From Leucobacter chromiiresistens (lineage in GTDB: Bacteria; Actinomycetota; Actinomycetes; Actinomycetales; Microbacteriaceae): 60,203 bases of DNA. Position numbers and translations under genes: made by a program. Shown here piece by piece: positions 1,775 to 60,203 of the stretch. Positions within the stretch are counted from its first letter, which is position 1. Every line of letters starts with the position of its first letter. The notes beneath the pieces are model-generated. The model saw only the letters and a list, made by a program, of their open reading frames with translations, made no database searches and was not told the origin of the DNA. The DNA is taken from assembly GCF_001477055.1 (NCBI RefSeq), contig NZ_LDRK01000040.1, forward strand, positions 1 through 60,203. Reading direction: 5' to 3'.

Positions 1775-1846
1775 TGCGCGATACTGGGATCGAACCAGTG
1801 ACCTCTTCCGTGTCAGGGAAGCGCGCTACCGCTGCGCCAATCGCGC
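1775..1846 (-). tRNA. tRNA-Val(GAC)
   Basis: Read on the minus strand it folds as a 72-base cloverleaf: acceptor GCGCGAT with ATCGCGC, D stem GCGC, anticodon stem CTTCC/GGAAG with loop CTGACAC (anticodon GAC), and T arm ACTGG/CCAGT. The CCA end is not encoded. It is the last tRNA of a Gly-Cys-Val operon. Confidence 0.95.
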
Positions 1847-1873
1847 CTGTTCAGGCTATTCAGTTGTGAAGCG

Positions 1874-1944
1874 AGGTGGCGACGGGATTCGAACCCGTGT
1901 ATACGGCTTTGCAGGCCGCTGCCTCGCCTCTCGGCCACGCCACC
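1874..1944 (-). tRNA. tRNA-Cys(GCA)
   Basis: A 71-base cloverleaf on the minus strand. The acceptor GGTGGCG pairs with CGCCACC, the discriminator is T (the cysteine identity base), and the anticodon loop holds GCA. CCA is not encoded. It is the middle gene of the tRNA operon. Confidence 0.95.
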
Positions 1945-1986
1945 GTAGTTTTGTTACCATAAGTTACCGGGCTGACCCGGTACCAG

Positions 1987-2059
1987 AGCGGATGACGAGA
2001 CTCGAACTCGCGACCCTCACCTTGGCAAGGTGATGCGCTACCAACTGCGCTACATCCGC
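1987..2059 (-). tRNA. tRNA-Gly(GCC)
   Basis: A 73-base cloverleaf on the minus strand. The acceptor GCGGATG pairs with CATCCGC, and the anticodon loop TTGCCAA gives GCC. It is the first tRNA of the Gly-Cys-Val operon and lies about 20 nt after the probable transcription start. Confidence 0.95.
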
Positions 2060-2087
2060 ATTCCGCCGCGTTGCCGCGACCTGAATA

Positions 2088-2116
2088 ACTATAGGGAAGC
2101 CTCGGCGGGGGTGCAA
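2088..2116 (-). promoter_or_regulatory. Promoter of the Gly-Cys-Val tRNA operon
   Basis: On the minus strand a -35 TTGCAC (2111-2116) and a -10 TATAGT (2088-2093) are separated by 17 bp, close to the primary sigma factor consensus. The gene-free stretch to 2219 otherwise holds only the start region of the next gene on the plus strand. Confidence 0.8.
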
Positions 2117-2219
2117 ATCGGGGCGTCACTCCCGGGCGCGCCGCCCGCTGCGGCCGCGTATCGATGCGGATCTTGTAACTTTTCCCCCTGGCGGGGACGG
2201 GCGCGGATACTGTTGTCCC

Positions 2220-3239
2220 ATGGCTGAAGGGGCGGCGGCGGTCGCGAAGCGATGGATCGGCTTCACCGTGTTCCTCGCCGTGGTCGCCGTCGCTGTCGCC
2301 GCCGTAATGTTCCGGCAGGAGATCAGCGATCATCTCGCGGGAGTGAACTTCGAGATGACGCCTCGGGTGAGCGCGCTGACCGATGATCTCGACCTCACGG
2401 ACGCGGGCCGGCGCATCTTCCTCGCGACGCACCCCACGGTCGACGGCAGCCAGCACTTCAATGATCAGTGCGCTGAGGTCGACCATTCGGAGCAGGGTCA
2501 CGTGCTCGGCTGCTACACGGCGGATCGCATCCATCTCTTCGACGTCACGGACGAGCGGGTGAGCGGGGTCGTGCAGATCACCGCCGCGCACGAGCTGCTG
2601 CACGCCGCATTCCACCGCCTGGGGGAGGGCGATCGCTCGCTCCTCGGCTCGCGGCTGCGCGCCGTGTACGAGGATCTCGCGCCCTCGCACCCGGACCTCG
2701 AAGAGCGGATGAGCGTGTACCAGCATCTTCCGGAGACGGCGTTCGCCAATGAGCTCCACTCCGTGCTGGGCACCGAGGTGCGCGATCTCCCGCCCTGGCT
2801 GGAAGAGCACTACTCGCAGTGGTTCACCGACCGAGCAGCCGTCGTCGACGACTTCGAACGGTATGTCACCGTCTTCAACGACCTGCAGAGCCAGGTCGAC
2901 GCACTGCAGGGCGAGATGGCCGAGCTGCGCGAAGACGTGGAGGAGCGGAAGTCGACGTACGTCGATGCGGTCGAGGCGTTCAACGCGGACGCCAACGCGT
3001 ACAAGGCCCGCATCGACCGCGACGAGTACCGCGACGCCCCCGAGCGCCTGCAGCGCGACTCGGACAGCCTGCAGAAGCGGCGCGCGGCCATCGACGCGGA
3101 GCTCGCGGCGCTGCAGGCGGACATCGATCGGTACAACGAGCTGCGCACCGAGCTCGAAGCACTGGGCGAGTTGAGCGCAGAACTGGACGAGCATCTCGAC
3201 AGCGATCTCGCGCCGATCACGACACGCCCGGACGAGTGA
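2220..3239 (+). CDS. Membrane-anchored zincin-like protein with HELLH motif and C-terminal coiled coil
   Basis: A 339-residue protein of unknown function. Residues 12-30 form one hydrophobic anchor, placing the rest outside the membrane. An HExxH motif, AAHELLHAAFHR (His124, Glu125, His128), is the zinc and catalytic signature of zincin metallopeptidases, and two cysteines (84, 98) could form a disulfide beside it. From about residue 210 to 330 the sequence is heptad-rich and charged, as in coiled coils. I do not recognise a named family, although uncharacterised bacterial proteins with a LGCY...AAHELLHAA pattern are known to me. A TACTGT -10-like hexamer lies at 2208-2213, six bases before the ATG. 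Peptidase activity is inference. Confidence 0.8.
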   Translation: MAEGAAAVAKRWIGFTVFLAVVAVAVAAVMFRQEISDHLAGVNFEMTPRVSALTDDLDLTDAGRRIFLATHPTVDGSQHFNDQCAEVDHSEQGHVLGCYTADRIHLFDVTDERVSGVVQITAAHELLHAAFHRLGEGDRSLLGSRLRAVYEDLAPSHPDLEERMSVYQHLPETAFANELHSVLGTEVRDLPPWLEEHYSQWFTDRAAVVDDFERYVTVFNDLQSQVDALQGEMAELREDVEERKSTYVDAVEAFNADANAYKARIDRDEYRDAPERLQRDSDSLQKRRAAIDAELAALQADIDRYNELRTELEALGELSAELDEHLDSDLAPITTRPDE

Positions 3240-3358
3240 TCGTCGATCGGCGGAAACCCGCCGCTGCTCGCTGGAGATGCGCGAGGTGGCCCGCGATCCG
3301 TGTATGATCGTTCAGGTTGGCACGGACGAGGAACTCTCGGGTTCGCGGACGCGCAGAC

Positions 3359-3431
3359 GGGCGATTGGCGCAGTTGGTAGCGCGCTTCCTTCACACGGAA
3401 GAGGTCATCAGTTCGAGTCTGGTATCGCCCA
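3359..3431 (+). tRNA. tRNA-Val(CAC)
   Basis: A 73-base cloverleaf with acceptor GGGCGAT pairing with ATCGCCC, anticodon stem CTTCC/GGAAG and loop TTCACAC (anticodon CAC). A TATGAT -10-like hexamer lies at 3302-3307. It closely resembles the other tRNA-Val in its 5' half. CCA is not encoded. Confidence 0.95.
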
Positions 3432-16238: not shown

Positions 16239-16311
16239 TCCCCTGTAGCTCAGTTGGCAGAGCGCTTGACTGTTAATCAGGATGTCGCTGGTTCGAGCCC
16301 AGCCGGGGGAG
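16239..16311 (+). tRNA. tRNA-Asn(GTT)
   Basis: A 73-base cloverleaf with acceptor TCCCCTG pairing with CGGGGGA, a D arm reading AGCTCAGTTGGCAGAGC, and anticodon loop CTGTTAA (anticodon GTT). Discriminator G. CCA is not encoded. Confidence 0.95.
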
Positions 16312-16318
16312 CGACTGA

Positions 16319-16348
16319 AGCCCTTACCCTTGCGGTAGGGGCTTTTTC
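16319..16348 (+). terminator. Rho-independent terminator behind tRNA-Asn
   Basis: A 10-bp stem (AGCCCTTACC with GGTAGGGGCT, one wobble pair) with a five-base loop, followed by TTTT, eight bases after the tRNA. Confidence 0.9.
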
Positions 16349-16379
16349 GTTTTCCCCGCACACGATCGCAGGAGGCGCC

Positions 16380-16937
16380 ATGACGACGAATGAGGCACCG
16401 CACTTCCCGGGAGCGCGCGTGATCGCAGTGCCGCCCTACGGCGACCCGCAGATCGATCCGAGCGCATGGCTCGCACCGGGCGCGGTCGTGGCGGGCGATG
16501 TGCGCATCGGGGCGCAGTCGAGCGTCTGGTACAACGCGGTGCTGCGCGGCGACTCCGACGCCGTGCGGGTGGGGGAGCGCACCAACATTCAGGACGGTGC
16601 GGTCGTGCACACCCAGCGAGACGATGCGGCGGTGATCGGGGACGACGTCTCGGTGGGCCATCTCGCGATGATCCATGGCGCGACCATCGAGGACGGCTGC
16701 CTGATCGGCATGCACGCCACCGTGCTCACCGGCGCGATCGTGGGGGCGGGGAGCCTGGTCGCCGCGGGAGCCGTGGTTCCGCAGGGAATGGTCGTGCCCC
16801 CGCATTCGCTCGTCGTCGGCGTACCGGGGCGTGTGGTCCGGGAACTGCGCGACGAGGATCGGGAGGCCGTGCGCATGAACTCGGCGCGCTACCTCGACAC
16901 CACCGCGCACCACCGCGACGCGACACGCGACGAATGA
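16380..16937 (+). CDS. Gamma carbonic anhydrase-like left-handed beta-helix protein
   Basis: A 185-residue hexapeptide-repeat protein. Repeats such as WLAPGAVVAGDVRIGAQSSVW form a left-handed beta-helix that trimerises. The three zinc ligands of the family are present as His77 (VVHTQ), His94 and His99 (VGHLAMIHGA). Some members hydrate CO2, others are inactive or act in acyl metabolism; activity here is not proven. AGGAGG at 16370-16375 supports the ATG at 16380. It is flanked by tRNA genes and has no operon partner. Confidence 0.9.
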   Translation: MTTNEAPHFPGARVIAVPPYGDPQIDPSAWLAPGAVVAGDVRIGAQSSVWYNAVLRGDSDAVRVGERTNIQDGAVVHTQRDDAAVIGDDVSVGHLAMIHGATIEDGCLIGMHATVLTGAIVGAGSLVAAGAVVPQGMVVPPHSLVVGVPGRVVRELRDEDREAVRMNSARYLDTTAHHRDATRDE

Positions 16938-17012
16938 TCGCCGGTTCGTCCCGCTGCGACTGATGCAGTATGATCGGTCAGGTGCTTCGGCACCGCGCGC
17001 TGCACGCAGCTC

Positions 17013-17083
17013 GGGGATGTAGCTCAATGGTAGAGCCTCAGTCTTCCAAACTGATTACGCGGGTTCGATTCCCGTCATCCCCT
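17013..17083 (+). tRNA. tRNA-Gly(TCC)
   Basis: A 71-base cloverleaf with acceptor GGGGATG pairing with CATCCCC and anticodon loop CTTCCAA (anticodon TCC). TATGAT at 16969-16974 is a likely -10. CCA is not encoded. Confidence 0.95.
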
Positions 17084-17090
17084 CCGCACA

Positions 17091-17118
17091 CAGGCCCCGC
17101 TTCGGCGGGGCCTGTTTC
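17091..17118 (+). terminator. Rho-independent terminator behind tRNA-Gly(TCC)
   Basis: A perfect 10-bp stem (CAGGCCCCGC with GCGGGGCCTG) with a TTCG tetraloop and a TTTCTG tail, eight bases after the tRNA. Confidence 0.92.
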
Positions 17119-17255
17119 TGTGTTCGCCTCCGCACCGGCCCCGACATCTCCGTCACGCGCCTCCCTCGAGTCTGCAGCACAGCGGTGCGCACATCGGCTA
17201 GACTTGCTCGGGTTGTGCGCGTGCTCGCGCCACCGTGACGGAACTCCCGGTCTTC

Positions 17256-17330
17256 CGGGGCGTAGCTCAGCTTGGCTAGAGCGCCCGCTTTGGGAGCGGG
17301 AGGTCGCAGGTTCGAATCCTGTCGCCCCGA
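17256..17330 (+). tRNA. tRNA-Pro(TGG)
   Basis: A 75-base cloverleaf with acceptor CGGGGCG pairing with CGCCCCG, anticodon stem CCCGC/GCGGG and loop TTTGGGA (anticodon TGG). TAGACT at 17199-17204 is a likely -10. No strong terminator separates it from tig, which starts 60 bp on. Confidence 0.95.
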
Positions 17331-57906: not shown

Positions 57907-58839
57907 ATGTCCACGCAGATCCCAGTCCAGACTCAGGCCCGCGCCGCCGCCGGGCGACCCACGTTCGGCCGCACGGTCAAGAACTACGTCGCCCTGACGA
58001 AACCCCGGGTCATGGAGCTGTTGCTCGTCGTCACCGTGCCCGCCATGATCCTCGCTCAGGGCGGCCTGCCGAACCTCTGGCTCGTGCTCGCGACGCTGAT
58101 CGGCGGAGCCATGAGCGCCGGGGCGGCCGGGGCCTTCAACTGCTACATCGACCGCGACATGGATCGCAAGATGAAGCGCACCGAGAACCGCCCCCTCGTC
58201 ACCGGTGAGATCTCCGACCGCAACGCCCTCATCTTCTCCTGGGTGATGGCGAGCCTGTCGGTCGTGTGGCTCGCGGCGACGACGAACTGGCTGGCCGCCG
58301 CGCTCTCCGCGGCCGCGATCTTCTTCTACGTGGTCGTCTACACGATCGTGCTCAAGCGCCACAGCGAGCAGAACATCGTGTGGGGCGGCATCGCGGGCTG
58401 CTTCCCGGTGCTCATCGGCTGGGCGGCCGTCACCGGATCGCTGGACTGGCCCGCATGGGTGCTCTTCCTCGTGATCTTCCTCTGGACGCCGGCGCACTAC
58501 TGGCCGCTCTCCATGAAGTACCGCAACGACTACGCCGCGGCCGGCGTGCCGATGCTCGGCGTCGTGCGCGGCCGCGTCACCGTCGGACTGCAGGTGATCC
58601 TCTACACATGGGCGACGGTCGCCGCCAGCCTGCTGCTGATCCCGGTCGCCGAGATGGGCTGGACCTACACCGTGGCATCGCTCGTCTTCGGCGGGTACTT
58701 CATCGTGCAGGCCCATCGCCTCTACGCCCACGCGATCCGCGGCGAGGCCGGCAAGCCCATGCAGGTGTTCCACACGGCGAACATCTACCTCTCGGTGCTG
58801 TCGCTCGTCATCGCCGTAGACGCGCTCCTGCCCTTCTAG
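57907..58839 (+). CDS. ctaB: Protoheme IX farnesyltransferase (heme O synthase)
   Basis: A 310-residue UbiA-superfamily membrane enzyme with about nine helices that adds a farnesyl group to heme B for terminal oxidases. The two Asp-rich motifs are NCYIDRDMDRKMKRTENRPL and YRNDYAAAGVPML. VALTKPRVMELLLVVTVPAMI is the N-terminal signature. TACCAT at 57893-57898 is eight bases before the ATG, suggesting a leaderless message. It shares the divergent region with tkt. Confidence 0.96.
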   Translation: MSTQIPVQTQARAAAGRPTFGRTVKNYVALTKPRVMELLLVVTVPAMILAQGGLPNLWLVLATLIGGAMSAGAAGAFNCYIDRDMDRKMKRTENRPLVTGEISDRNALIFSWVMASLSVVWLAATTNWLAAALSAAAIFFYVVVYTIVLKRHSEQNIVWGGIAGCFPVLIGWAAVTGSLDWPAWVLFLVIFLWTPAHYWPLSMKYRNDYAAAGVPMLGVVRGRVTVGLQVILYTWATVAASLLLIPVAEMGWTYTVASLVFGGYFIVQAHRLYAHAIRGEAGKPMQVFHTANIYLSVLSLVIAVDALLPF

Positions 58840-58923
58840 TCGCGCAGGCGCACCGCTGCCCCCGCTGCCACCGCGGCCCCCGCTGCACCCACCGCTCTCT
58901 CCGCCTCCGCGTGTTCGCGCCCT

Positions 58924-58984
58924 TCGAGAGCGCGATATGTGCTCCGTCTCGAGGGCGCTGCATGCCGAACTGCGCTCTCGACGA
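58924..58984. repeat. Inverted-repeat element, left copy (61 bp)
   Basis: Arms TCGAGAGCGC and GCGCTCTCGA enclose about 40 bases; the flanks CGCGCCCT and AGGGCCGCG extend the pairing imperfectly. Its right part, GAACTGCGCTYTCGRCGA, and its left part, AGAGCGCG-ATATGTGC, are related to the element at 60126-60203. Between ctaB and this element (58846-58911) lies a GCTGC/CCGC-rich low-complexity stretch. Confidence 0.75.
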
Positions 58985-59103
58985 GGGCCGCGCCCTCCCT
59001 GCCGCCTCCGGGTCTGCACACTTCCGCGCGCAACCTCCGCGCCCCAAGCGCGAGCCTGTGGAGCGCACCTGCACGGCCGGACGCCCGGTGCCAGACTCGG
59101 GAC

Positions 59104-60132
59104 ATGTCTCGACAGCTGCAGCGCATCACCCGAACCTTCGGTACGGAGCCCTTCTCAGTCGAGACCGCGCTGCACGCCGGCTTCGGCAGGGGAGCGCTCC
59201 GCAATCGAGCGCTCGCGCGCCCGCACCGCGGAGTCCGCGTGAGAGACGAGATCGACGCCTCCCTCGTGAGTCGGGCCCTCGCCCTCCTGCCGAAGCTGCG
59301 ACCGGGTGACCGGTTCAGCCATGCGACCGCGCTCGCACTGCTCGGCTGCCCGATTCGGGTGCGACCGGCAACCCCGGTCGACGTGTCCTCCGCCCCGGGC
59401 ACCACGCCCATGCGCCGAGCGGGCGTCGCCGGGCATCGATCGGAGCACGCGTCTGCCGTCGCCCTGCAAGTGGCTGCACGGTGCTGGACGAACGACGGTG
59501 CACTGAGTCTCCCCGTCTCCCTTCCCGCCGCCGCCGTCGGCGAAGCGGCCGCCCTGCTCCCCGGCCCGGAGCTGGTCGTCGCAATCGATTCCCTCCTGCA
59601 CCGCGGCGCCACCCACTACAACAGCGCGGTCGCGATGCTGACCGAGCGCCTCCTGGAAGATCTCCGCGGTGCGCCGAGCTCGCGAGGCGCCGTGCGACTC
59701 AGACTCGCGGTGGGACTCGCGAGGCATGGCGCCGAGTCGAGAATGGAGACGCTTCTGCGTCTCATCGGAGAACGTGTCGGGATCTCGGACCTCACGCTCC
59801 AGGGCACGATCCGGTCGGGCGACACGGAGATCGGCAGGTTCGACCTCACGGACGAGCGAACGCGAAGCTACTTCGAATACGACGGCGGTCAGCACCGCAC
59901 GTCTCGCTCCCAGTACCTTCGGGACATCGCCCGATACGACGGCGCACGTGACGCGGGCTGGCGCGGAGTGCGCTTCCACTCGGAGGACGTGCTGCTCACC
60001 CCCGATCGCACGGCGGAGCGAATGCTCGACCGTCTCGGACGCGCACCTAGGCGAATACCCGCCCCTGTCGCGAAGTTTCTCGCCGAAGGTGCGGCTTCGC
60101 CGCTCGTCCCGGCCTCCCCGCACGCAAGATAG
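59104..60132 (+). CDS. DUF559/Vsr-like PD-(D/E)XK nuclease domain protein with AbiEi-like N-terminus
   Basis: A 342-residue protein. The C-terminal domain (about 215-310) has the endonuclease-like order Glu215 (ESRMETLLRL), Asp247 (IGRFDLTDE), Glu258-x-Asp260 with Gln263-His264 (YFEYDGGQHRT), then YLRDIARYDGARDAGWRGVRF, as in DUF559 and Vsr-type PD-(D/E)XK proteins. The N-terminal 90 residues (FSVETALHAGFGRGALRNRALARPHRGV and FSHATALALLGCP) resemble AbiEi-type antitoxin winged-helix modules. Such proteins are numerous and unnamed in Microbacteriaceae. CAGACT at 59092-59097 lies six bases before the ATG. It is flanked on both sides by related inverted-repeat elements. Function unknown. Confidence 0.85.
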   Translation: MSRQLQRITRTFGTEPFSVETALHAGFGRGALRNRALARPHRGVRVRDEIDASLVSRALALLPKLRPGDRFSHATALALLGCPIRVRPATPVDVSSAPGTTPMRRAGVAGHRSEHASAVALQVAARCWTNDGALSLPVSLPAAAVGEAAALLPGPELVVAIDSLLHRGATHYNSAVAMLTERLLEDLRGAPSSRGAVRLRLAVGLARHGAESRMETLLRLIGERVGISDLTLQGTIRSGDTEIGRFDLTDERTRSYFEYDGGQHRTSRSQYLRDIARYDGARDAGWRGVRFHSEDVLLTPDRTAERMLDRLGRAPRRIPAPVAKFLAEGAASPLVPASPHAR

Positions 60133-60203
60133 TCGCCGAAAGCGCGAAAAGTGCGGCCCCAGGGCACGCGAAGGTGCTGAACTGCGCTTTCGGCGACTAT
60201 CTT
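60126..60203. repeat. Inverted-repeat element, right copy (78 bp, at window edge)
   Basis: Two perfect 20-bp arms (AAGATAGTCGCCGAAAGCGC at 60126-60145 and its complement at 60184-60203) enclose 38 bases. The left arm begins within the last codons of the nuclease-like gene and includes its stop. The arms may continue past the window edge. Its inner edges share GAACTGCGCTYTCGRCGA and AGCGCGAAAAGTGC-like sequence with the left copy. Confidence 0.85.

Follow-up and report, generated by a model that had tools for sequence, protein, structure and literature searches.

To our knowledge, the REP-type repeats for which a dedicated enzyme has been described are served by one enzyme class, the HUH RAYTs. 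EDxHD nucleases belong to a different kind of enzyme, and one of them binds as a dimer to a target that measures nearly 60 bp (PMC3943268). According to PMC8266576, REPs are 20–50 nt long, and about six hundred of them occur in E. coli K12. In a literature search, which for the most part covered papers outside subscription, DUF559/Vsr-like proteins were nowhere joined with dispersed palindromes in the titles and opening lines of abstracts.

The stretch of DNA analysed here, referred to as the window, is an entire contig of 60203 nt from a 2.79-Mb draft genome. Close to its end, a gene for a nuclease-like protein lies between two palindromes. As in a REPtron (RAYT/TnpA-REP), the palindromes that flank the gene come from a family dispersed mostly between genes, palindrome and enzyme diverge in parallel, and the gene is chromosomal in the collections searched, with one plasmid record and no phage record among the matches. 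In contrast to a REPtron, the enzyme combines an AbiEi-like part with a Vsr/EDxHD-like nuclease and is not an HUH/Y1 protein. The palindromes are longer (median span 58 versus 20–50 nt for REPs), and there are 1–17 copies per genome (lower bounds) versus about six hundred in E. coli K12 (PMC8266576). We consider it probable, at roughly 60%, that gene and palindromes represent a chromosomal REP-like system, in which an AbiEi-like plus Vsr/EDxHD-type nuclease is paired with the palindromes of about 55–65 bp that it recognises.

The nuclease-like protein

The nuclease gene (DUF559/MTES_1575-like; 59104–60132, + strand) encodes a protein of 342 aa, whose Pfam matches are weak and lie below the cut-offs. 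It starts with the same ATG as its orthologue in genome G040. The comparison of both genes yielded a dN/dS of 0.19, and purifying selection acts on the nuclease-like protein. For another pair of homologues (L313 and L109) the dN/dS is about 0.9; this pair probably includes a decaying copy.

The N-terminal region (59110–59724, + strand; residues 3–207) appears to possess an AbiEi-antitoxin-like fold and is presumably DNA-binding, and the C-terminal Vsr/EDxHD-type nuclease domain follows at 59725–60048 (+ strand; about residues 208–315). In the C-terminal domain, S212, E215, E258, Y259, G261, H264, Q270 and D274 are invariant or nearly invariant. Among these, E215, E258, H264 and D274 are conserved to at least 90% in the sequence alignment of 57 homologues (A1, from which 11 of 68 proteins with an internal stop or fewer than 280 aa were omitted), and D247 is invariant in 18 homologues. 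In the fold comparison (VIA-align table), the nuclease domain was nearest to a homing endonuclease domain, the C-terminus being Vsr/I-Bth0305I-like and the N-terminus AbiEi-antitoxin-like. Foldseek against the PDB gave no match at E ≤ 0.001, with mitoribosomal proteins in the top rows; Foldseek alone reached 3r3p and 1vsr merely at E 0.16–0.18.

When the 57 homologues were searched against Pfam, MTES_1575, DUF559 and AbiEi_4 were obtained and nothing else, AbiEi_4 in three proteins. The window protein had no match in NCBIfam, where the DUF559 model was matched by 6 of the 57 homologues and 'anti-phage protein ProA' by one (best E 0.0017). PHROGs gave two weak matches, both to families of unknown function, and PADLOC found nothing.

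The fold of the catalytic domain thus matches that of EDxHD/Vsr-type nucleases. Unlike the EDxHD homing endonuclease I-Bth0305I, however, the protein has an AbiEi-like N-terminus and is encoded by a free-standing gene between palindromes, and neither an intron nor an intein was noticed. It also differs from the Vsr very short patch repair endonuclease by its link to palindromes, and from the AbiEi antitoxin of type IV toxin-antitoxin systems by its own nuclease domain. No cognate toxin gene was found beside the AbiEi-like gene at the G040 orthologue, where the neighbours are of the UbiA and COX15-CtaA families.

The two palindromes in the window

The upstream neighbour of the nuclease gene encodes a UbiA-family prenyltransferase (57907–58839, + strand; Pfam UbiA E 1.8e-69). 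This gene, which we take to be ctaB, was matched in 36 of 40 genomes and was the reference point for the comparison of sites. Seven tRNA genes are located elsewhere in the window (1775–3431 and 16239–17330).

Element A, the left palindrome, spans about 58924–58984 and ends 119 bp 5' of the ATG. Its core arms are CGAGAGCGC (58925–58933) and GCGCTCTCG (58972–58980); with the arms extended to 58917–58933 and 58972–58988, 82% of 17 nt are complementary. Element B, the right palindrome (60126–60193), has the core arms CCGAAAGCGC (60136–60145) and GCGCTTTCGG (60184–60193) and starts four bases before the stop codon TAG (60130–60132). Both elements have an orthologous counterpart in G040. Gene and elements were thus found where the original prediction, made from the sequence by itself, had located them.

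The same prediction held that both elements share their order and their inner sequence, and this was confirmed. Their left halves agree at 83% over 18 nt and their right halves at 86% over 22 nt, both shared stretches lie at a spacing of 1212, and the span from GAGAGCGC/GAAAGCGC to GCGCTCTC/GCGCTTTC is 54 nt in A and B alike. The core ends read CGA(G/A)AGCGC and GCGCT(C/T)TCG. None of 660 shuffled downstream flanks reached the palindrome score of the right element (20), whose RNA fold gave a z of -6.2. The left element is weak when taken alone (RNA fold z = -2.0, palindrome score 10) and convincing only as a member of its family; its match to the covariance model (1.7e-14) arises by construction, as element A is a member of the model.

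The perfect 20-nt arms claimed for the right element are present in the window over 60126–60203, with 38 nt between them. The outermost ten bases of the right arm (60194–60203) form the end of the contig and are not palindromic in the G040 orthologue, whose right element possesses the CCGAAAGCGC / GCGCTTTCGG core arms without the outer 10-bp match. The outer half of the perfect arms may therefore be a fold-back artefact of the assembly at the contig end.

Palindromes beside homologous genes

Of 40 related genomes, 30 contained homologues, and a second query detected them in 46 of 54 Leucobacter genomes; many of the genomes are drafts. Further homologues came from named loci, the best 80 of 196 confirmed, which mostly represent genera of the Microbacteriaceae. 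L119 was dropped, as tblastn gave no match. For the palindrome survey, 193 loci were condensed to 165 genes, 145 after length and flank limits, and 142 non-duplicate genes once L135, L147 and L155 had been removed as repeats of genes already included. The window gene (L028) stands outside this set, because the contig ends and its downstream flank is too short. A single finder and a single threshold were applied to all 142 genes.

A strong palindrome, with a median span of 58, adjoined the gene in 105 of the 142 homologues (74 upstream, 62 downstream, 31 on both sides); the remaining 37 had none at the threshold. Gene and palindrome are thus paired, and the element that the original prediction expected near homologues does occur there. 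Dinucleotide shuffles reached the threshold in 1/710 and 0/710 cases, and windows far from the gene in 3/254 at score 15 (first 68 loci). The ctaB genes used as control showed a palindrome upstream in 0/29 and downstream in 4/29 cases, and these four may be dispersed copies instead of terminators, since similar-looking palindromes are found downstream of ctaB.

The two sides of a locus resemble each other. In 27 of 31 two-sided loci, the palindrome on the right was the best match of that on the left, which was equalled in 0/2000 permutations. The exceptions are L050, L177, L275 and L277, three of which (L050, L275, L277) represent one clade with very similar palindromes. The flanking pair matches within a locus and differs between loci; such matched sides could also result from recombination without any nuclease. 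The relative orientation of the flanking palindromes followed no clear rule (18 direct, 10 inverted, 2 ties).

The more similar two proteins were, the more similar were their palindromes (Mantel rho 0.155, 0/999). A similar palindrome was shared by 70 of 4761 pairs with less than 40% protein identity, by 8 of 14 pairs at 60–75% and by 3 of 4 pairs above 75%. Part of this trend is simple descent.

Dispersed copies and stem covariation

Cognate copies of two palindrome families were found dispersed in Leucobacter genomes. The pattern GCGGAGTCC N34-52 GGACTCCGC occurred 11 times in G008, 14 times in G017 and once in G050, and was absent from the remaining 51 of 54 genomes; the reversed control gave 0 in every genome (n=54). 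G008 and G017 each carry a gene flanked by a palindrome of this family (L112 and L111, respectively), so that some of these places belong to the gene itself; no other palindromes looked as regular as those of the G008/G017 type. The pattern GGGGTCACTT N30-52 AAGTGACCCC was detected in 12 of the 54 genomes, with a control of 0, namely in 8/8 of those whose gene shares 50% identity or more with L103 of G000 versus 4/46 others (Fisher 4.8e-7, uncorrected for kinship and with a cut-off picked after the table had been seen). At a cut-off of 48% the ratio becomes 8/10, since G004 and G011 then join, which harbor a 48% identical gene but no exact-pattern GGGGTCACTT copy. G041 is an orphan with 12 GGGGTCACTT copies, in which a close gene is absent. 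A motif occurring everywhere irrespective of the gene, which would have spoken against the original prediction, was not observed. The copy numbers from these exact-pattern searches, 1–17 per genome, are lower bounds.

With both strands merged, the covariance model of the window family matched 7 places in G000, 16 places in G040 and 3 places in G016. Since the model itself was built from the 7 G000 places and three of the G040 places, the finds that count as independent are 13 for G040 and 3 for G016. At E ≤ 0.01, 24/54 genomes gave some match, in many cases a weak one. With a simple gene caller, 33 of the 38 copies inspected did not fall within a called gene, and 3 occupied divergent gaps; this set includes at least two copies adjoining a nuclease gene (L237, L263). 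At L301 (G017:C1:2193000-2205000), identical palindromes with similar flanks are located at 2196148 and 2199720, with a third one nearby, which suggests a local duplication.

The hairpins of both families covary. Across 14 copies of the GCGGAGTCC family, pairing in a stem of 26 bp amounts to 96.7%, and 25 cells are double-changed, a value reached in 0/500 shuffles; slid controls gave at most 5. Seven copies from G008 alone showed 8 double-changed cells (0/500 shuffles), and ten copies of the GGGGTCACTT family showed 18 (0/500 shuffles); the shuffles leave kinship in place. The GCGGAGTCC alignment (A3) comprises 14 of 15 loci from 26 places found, the identical L247 being omitted, alignment A6 seven out of the 11 G008 copies, and the GGGGTCACTT alignment (A7) ten of 18 loci (L252–L269), namely every one shorter than 60 nt except L262 (50 nt). 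Because the letters of the search pattern are fixed, the informative pairs are the inner and the outermost ones only. The number of further pair types did not clearly exceed the shuffles (39/500, 500/500 and 20/500 for the GCGGAGTCC, G008-only and GGGGTCACTT alignments, respectively).

Covariation of the arms had also been predicted for the window. It applies to the two sister families, but in the family of the window elements themselves (10 copies) it was no higher than in the shuffles (covariation score 159/500), the core arms being nearly constant, and for the outer arms of the right element of the window it is doubtful. Where positions vary inside a single genome, their pairing is preserved, which points to a role of the folded palindrome, or to copying of one arm from the other.

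Comparison of sites and movement of the cassette

In G040, the orthologue of the window cassette occupies the identical ctaB-side position, and the cassette was thus inherited vertically there. The sister genome G016 harbors at this site a 46%-identical gene, no other gene of G016 being closer to that of the window. In the space that separates ctaB from the DUF559 gene of G016 (L031 / L059), several tandem units of the GGTGAGCAGTTCGTGCG... type are located, and the gene has no strong palindrome. Downstream of ctaB, in 24 Leucobacter loci, a nuclease match was present in two (G000 and G016), and 13 reach the next gene within 1.5 kb without a nuclease match. The gene on the far side, of the COX15-CtaA family, lay outside the covered stretch in the other nine. 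L132 of Leucobacter chironomi and L181 of Subtercola boreus also occupy the ctaB-side site, sharing both flanks (judged by flank similarity). Both suggest an old residence, and absence elsewhere may therefore represent loss and not an uninvaded site.

At the site of the L091 cassette of G018, the neighbouring genes are only 58–574 bp apart in 16 of 20 stretches from relatives, which is too close for a nuclease gene, and 1416 bp apart in one of 20. Together with the ctaB-side site, these are the sites without the nuclease for which the original prediction had proposed to search. Several of the gaps contain a palindrome of other sequence, and that in G017 is the palindrome of its own L111. The junctions at sites without the cassette are too diverged for a target duplication or a clean junction to be read. 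The L091 cassette matches G021 in two parts, one on contig C8 and one on C1, and the C8 part stops in a palindrome near the contig end.

Cassettes inverted with respect to the same flanks were checked on the DNA for L101/L298 and L292/L293 (Leucobacter-group) and for L174/L200 (Cryobacterium). Orientation was kept in 67 of 85 same-site locus pairs and inverted in 18 (the pairs are not independent), and since most pairs keep it, movement of the gene appears to be rare. Palindromes at orthologous sites differ or decay, with one example of each: one site carries different subtypes of the same family, the 62-type in G016 and the 52-type in G000. At another, the palindrome is kept in G000 and G040 with compensated differences and is down to one arm in G016. 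Searches of viral_contigs (0/585 candidate stretches) and of a phage collection (50,697 records) gave no match, and a plasmid collection gave one in 72,556 records, at 30% identity; in the collections searched, the gene is chromosomal.

Alternative explanations

The protein could be an AbiEi-like repressor and the palindromes its operators, so that an autoregulated gene would be accompanied by a dispersed regulon. The AbiEi-antitoxin-like fold, AbiEi_4 in 3/57 homologues and the many palindromes 50–300 bp upstream of the start agree with this. It is nevertheless unlikely, as a matched palindrome is often present downstream of the gene too, divergent gaps seldom hold dispersed copies (3/38), and a duplex operator would not require that variable positions inside a single genome remain strictly paired. 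That the palindromes serve as common transcription terminators or insulators flanking a gene that is often acquired appears quite unlikely, even if the right element of the window begins at the stop codon and a position directly behind a stop codon or between convergent genes was recorded for 15 of 32 classified intergenic copies versus 4 of 26 gaps in the window (Fisher p 0.013). Upstream palindromes are no rarer than downstream ones (74 vs 62), the two sides match each other in a locus-specific manner, and in 3/3 genomes compared a dispersed copy has beside it another hairpin, with a short loop and the shape of a terminator. The palindrome loops are mostly long, and a T-run is not consistent (both judged by eye). 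If the palindromes acted at the RNA level, with hairpins that the protein processes or binds, for instance, as in an RNA-based toxin-antitoxin or stability system, this would account for the strong folds and the covariation. Such a role is quite improbable all the same, because the nearest folds are those of DNA nucleases, Rfam matches over the window are tRNAs only, and the symmetrical stems let either DNA strand fold alike.

Quasi-palindromes can be corrected without selection. Template-switch mutation and recombination alone might thus make and keep the palindromes, with the nuclease gene as a passenger, and recombination between palindromes would easily invert a cassette at the same site. 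We regard this as very unlikely, since it leaves unexplained the association of family and gene across genomes and the decay where the cognate gene is missing (one site). The least credible explanation is that of conventional REPs moved by a RAYT, or of terminal inverted repeats of an IS or MITE, although dispersed, intergenic and gene-flanking palindromes are the layout of a REPtron (PMC3733652 and PMC8266576). The Y1 transposase family PF01797 was found in 0/54 Leucobacter genomes versus 5/14 control genomes, no HUH/Y1 transposase was among the Pfam matches of the 57 homologues, and by eye no conserved GTAG was present at the palindrome foot in three family alignments (A3, A5, A7). Without HUH protein and GTAG foot, the system may be REPtron-like in its working but is not a member of this group.

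Putative mechanism and significance

A REP-like system with its own nuclease might function as follows. Typically, the palindrome adjoins its gene, often on both sides, and more copies are located in intergenic regions across the genome. The nuclease would recognise its cognate palindrome, perhaps through the N-terminal part, bind it in folded form as a hairpin or cruciform, and nick or cut there. A target of about 60 bp, as known for the EDxHD enzyme, fits the palindrome length. Repair from another copy would then spread and homogenise the palindromes, and the gene would be carried along when both its palindromes take part, in a homing-like gene conversion that would replace the HUH transposition of RAYTs. 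The likeness to REP/RAYT systems and homing genes, already part of the original prediction, is reflected in the flanking palindromes, their matched sides, the dispersed copies, the gene-free sites and the homing-endonuclease-like fold.

Whether these elements are a separate, hitherto undescribed class of bacterial palindromic repeats appears evenly balanced to us. In such a class, sequence-specific Vsr/EDxHD-type nucleases with an AbiEi-like recognition domain would preserve cognate hairpins and spread them together with their own gene by cut-and-copy gene conversion, and their specificity would evolve as fast as that of restriction and homing systems. If this is true, a second, unrelated enzyme possesses its own dispersed palindromes, and this lifestyle would have arisen more than once. 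The common 'DUF559/MTES_1575' family would obtain a function, dozens of natural protein-palindrome pairs with differing specificities would be at hand, and the question of how palindromes spread would become testable in genomes where no RAYT is found.
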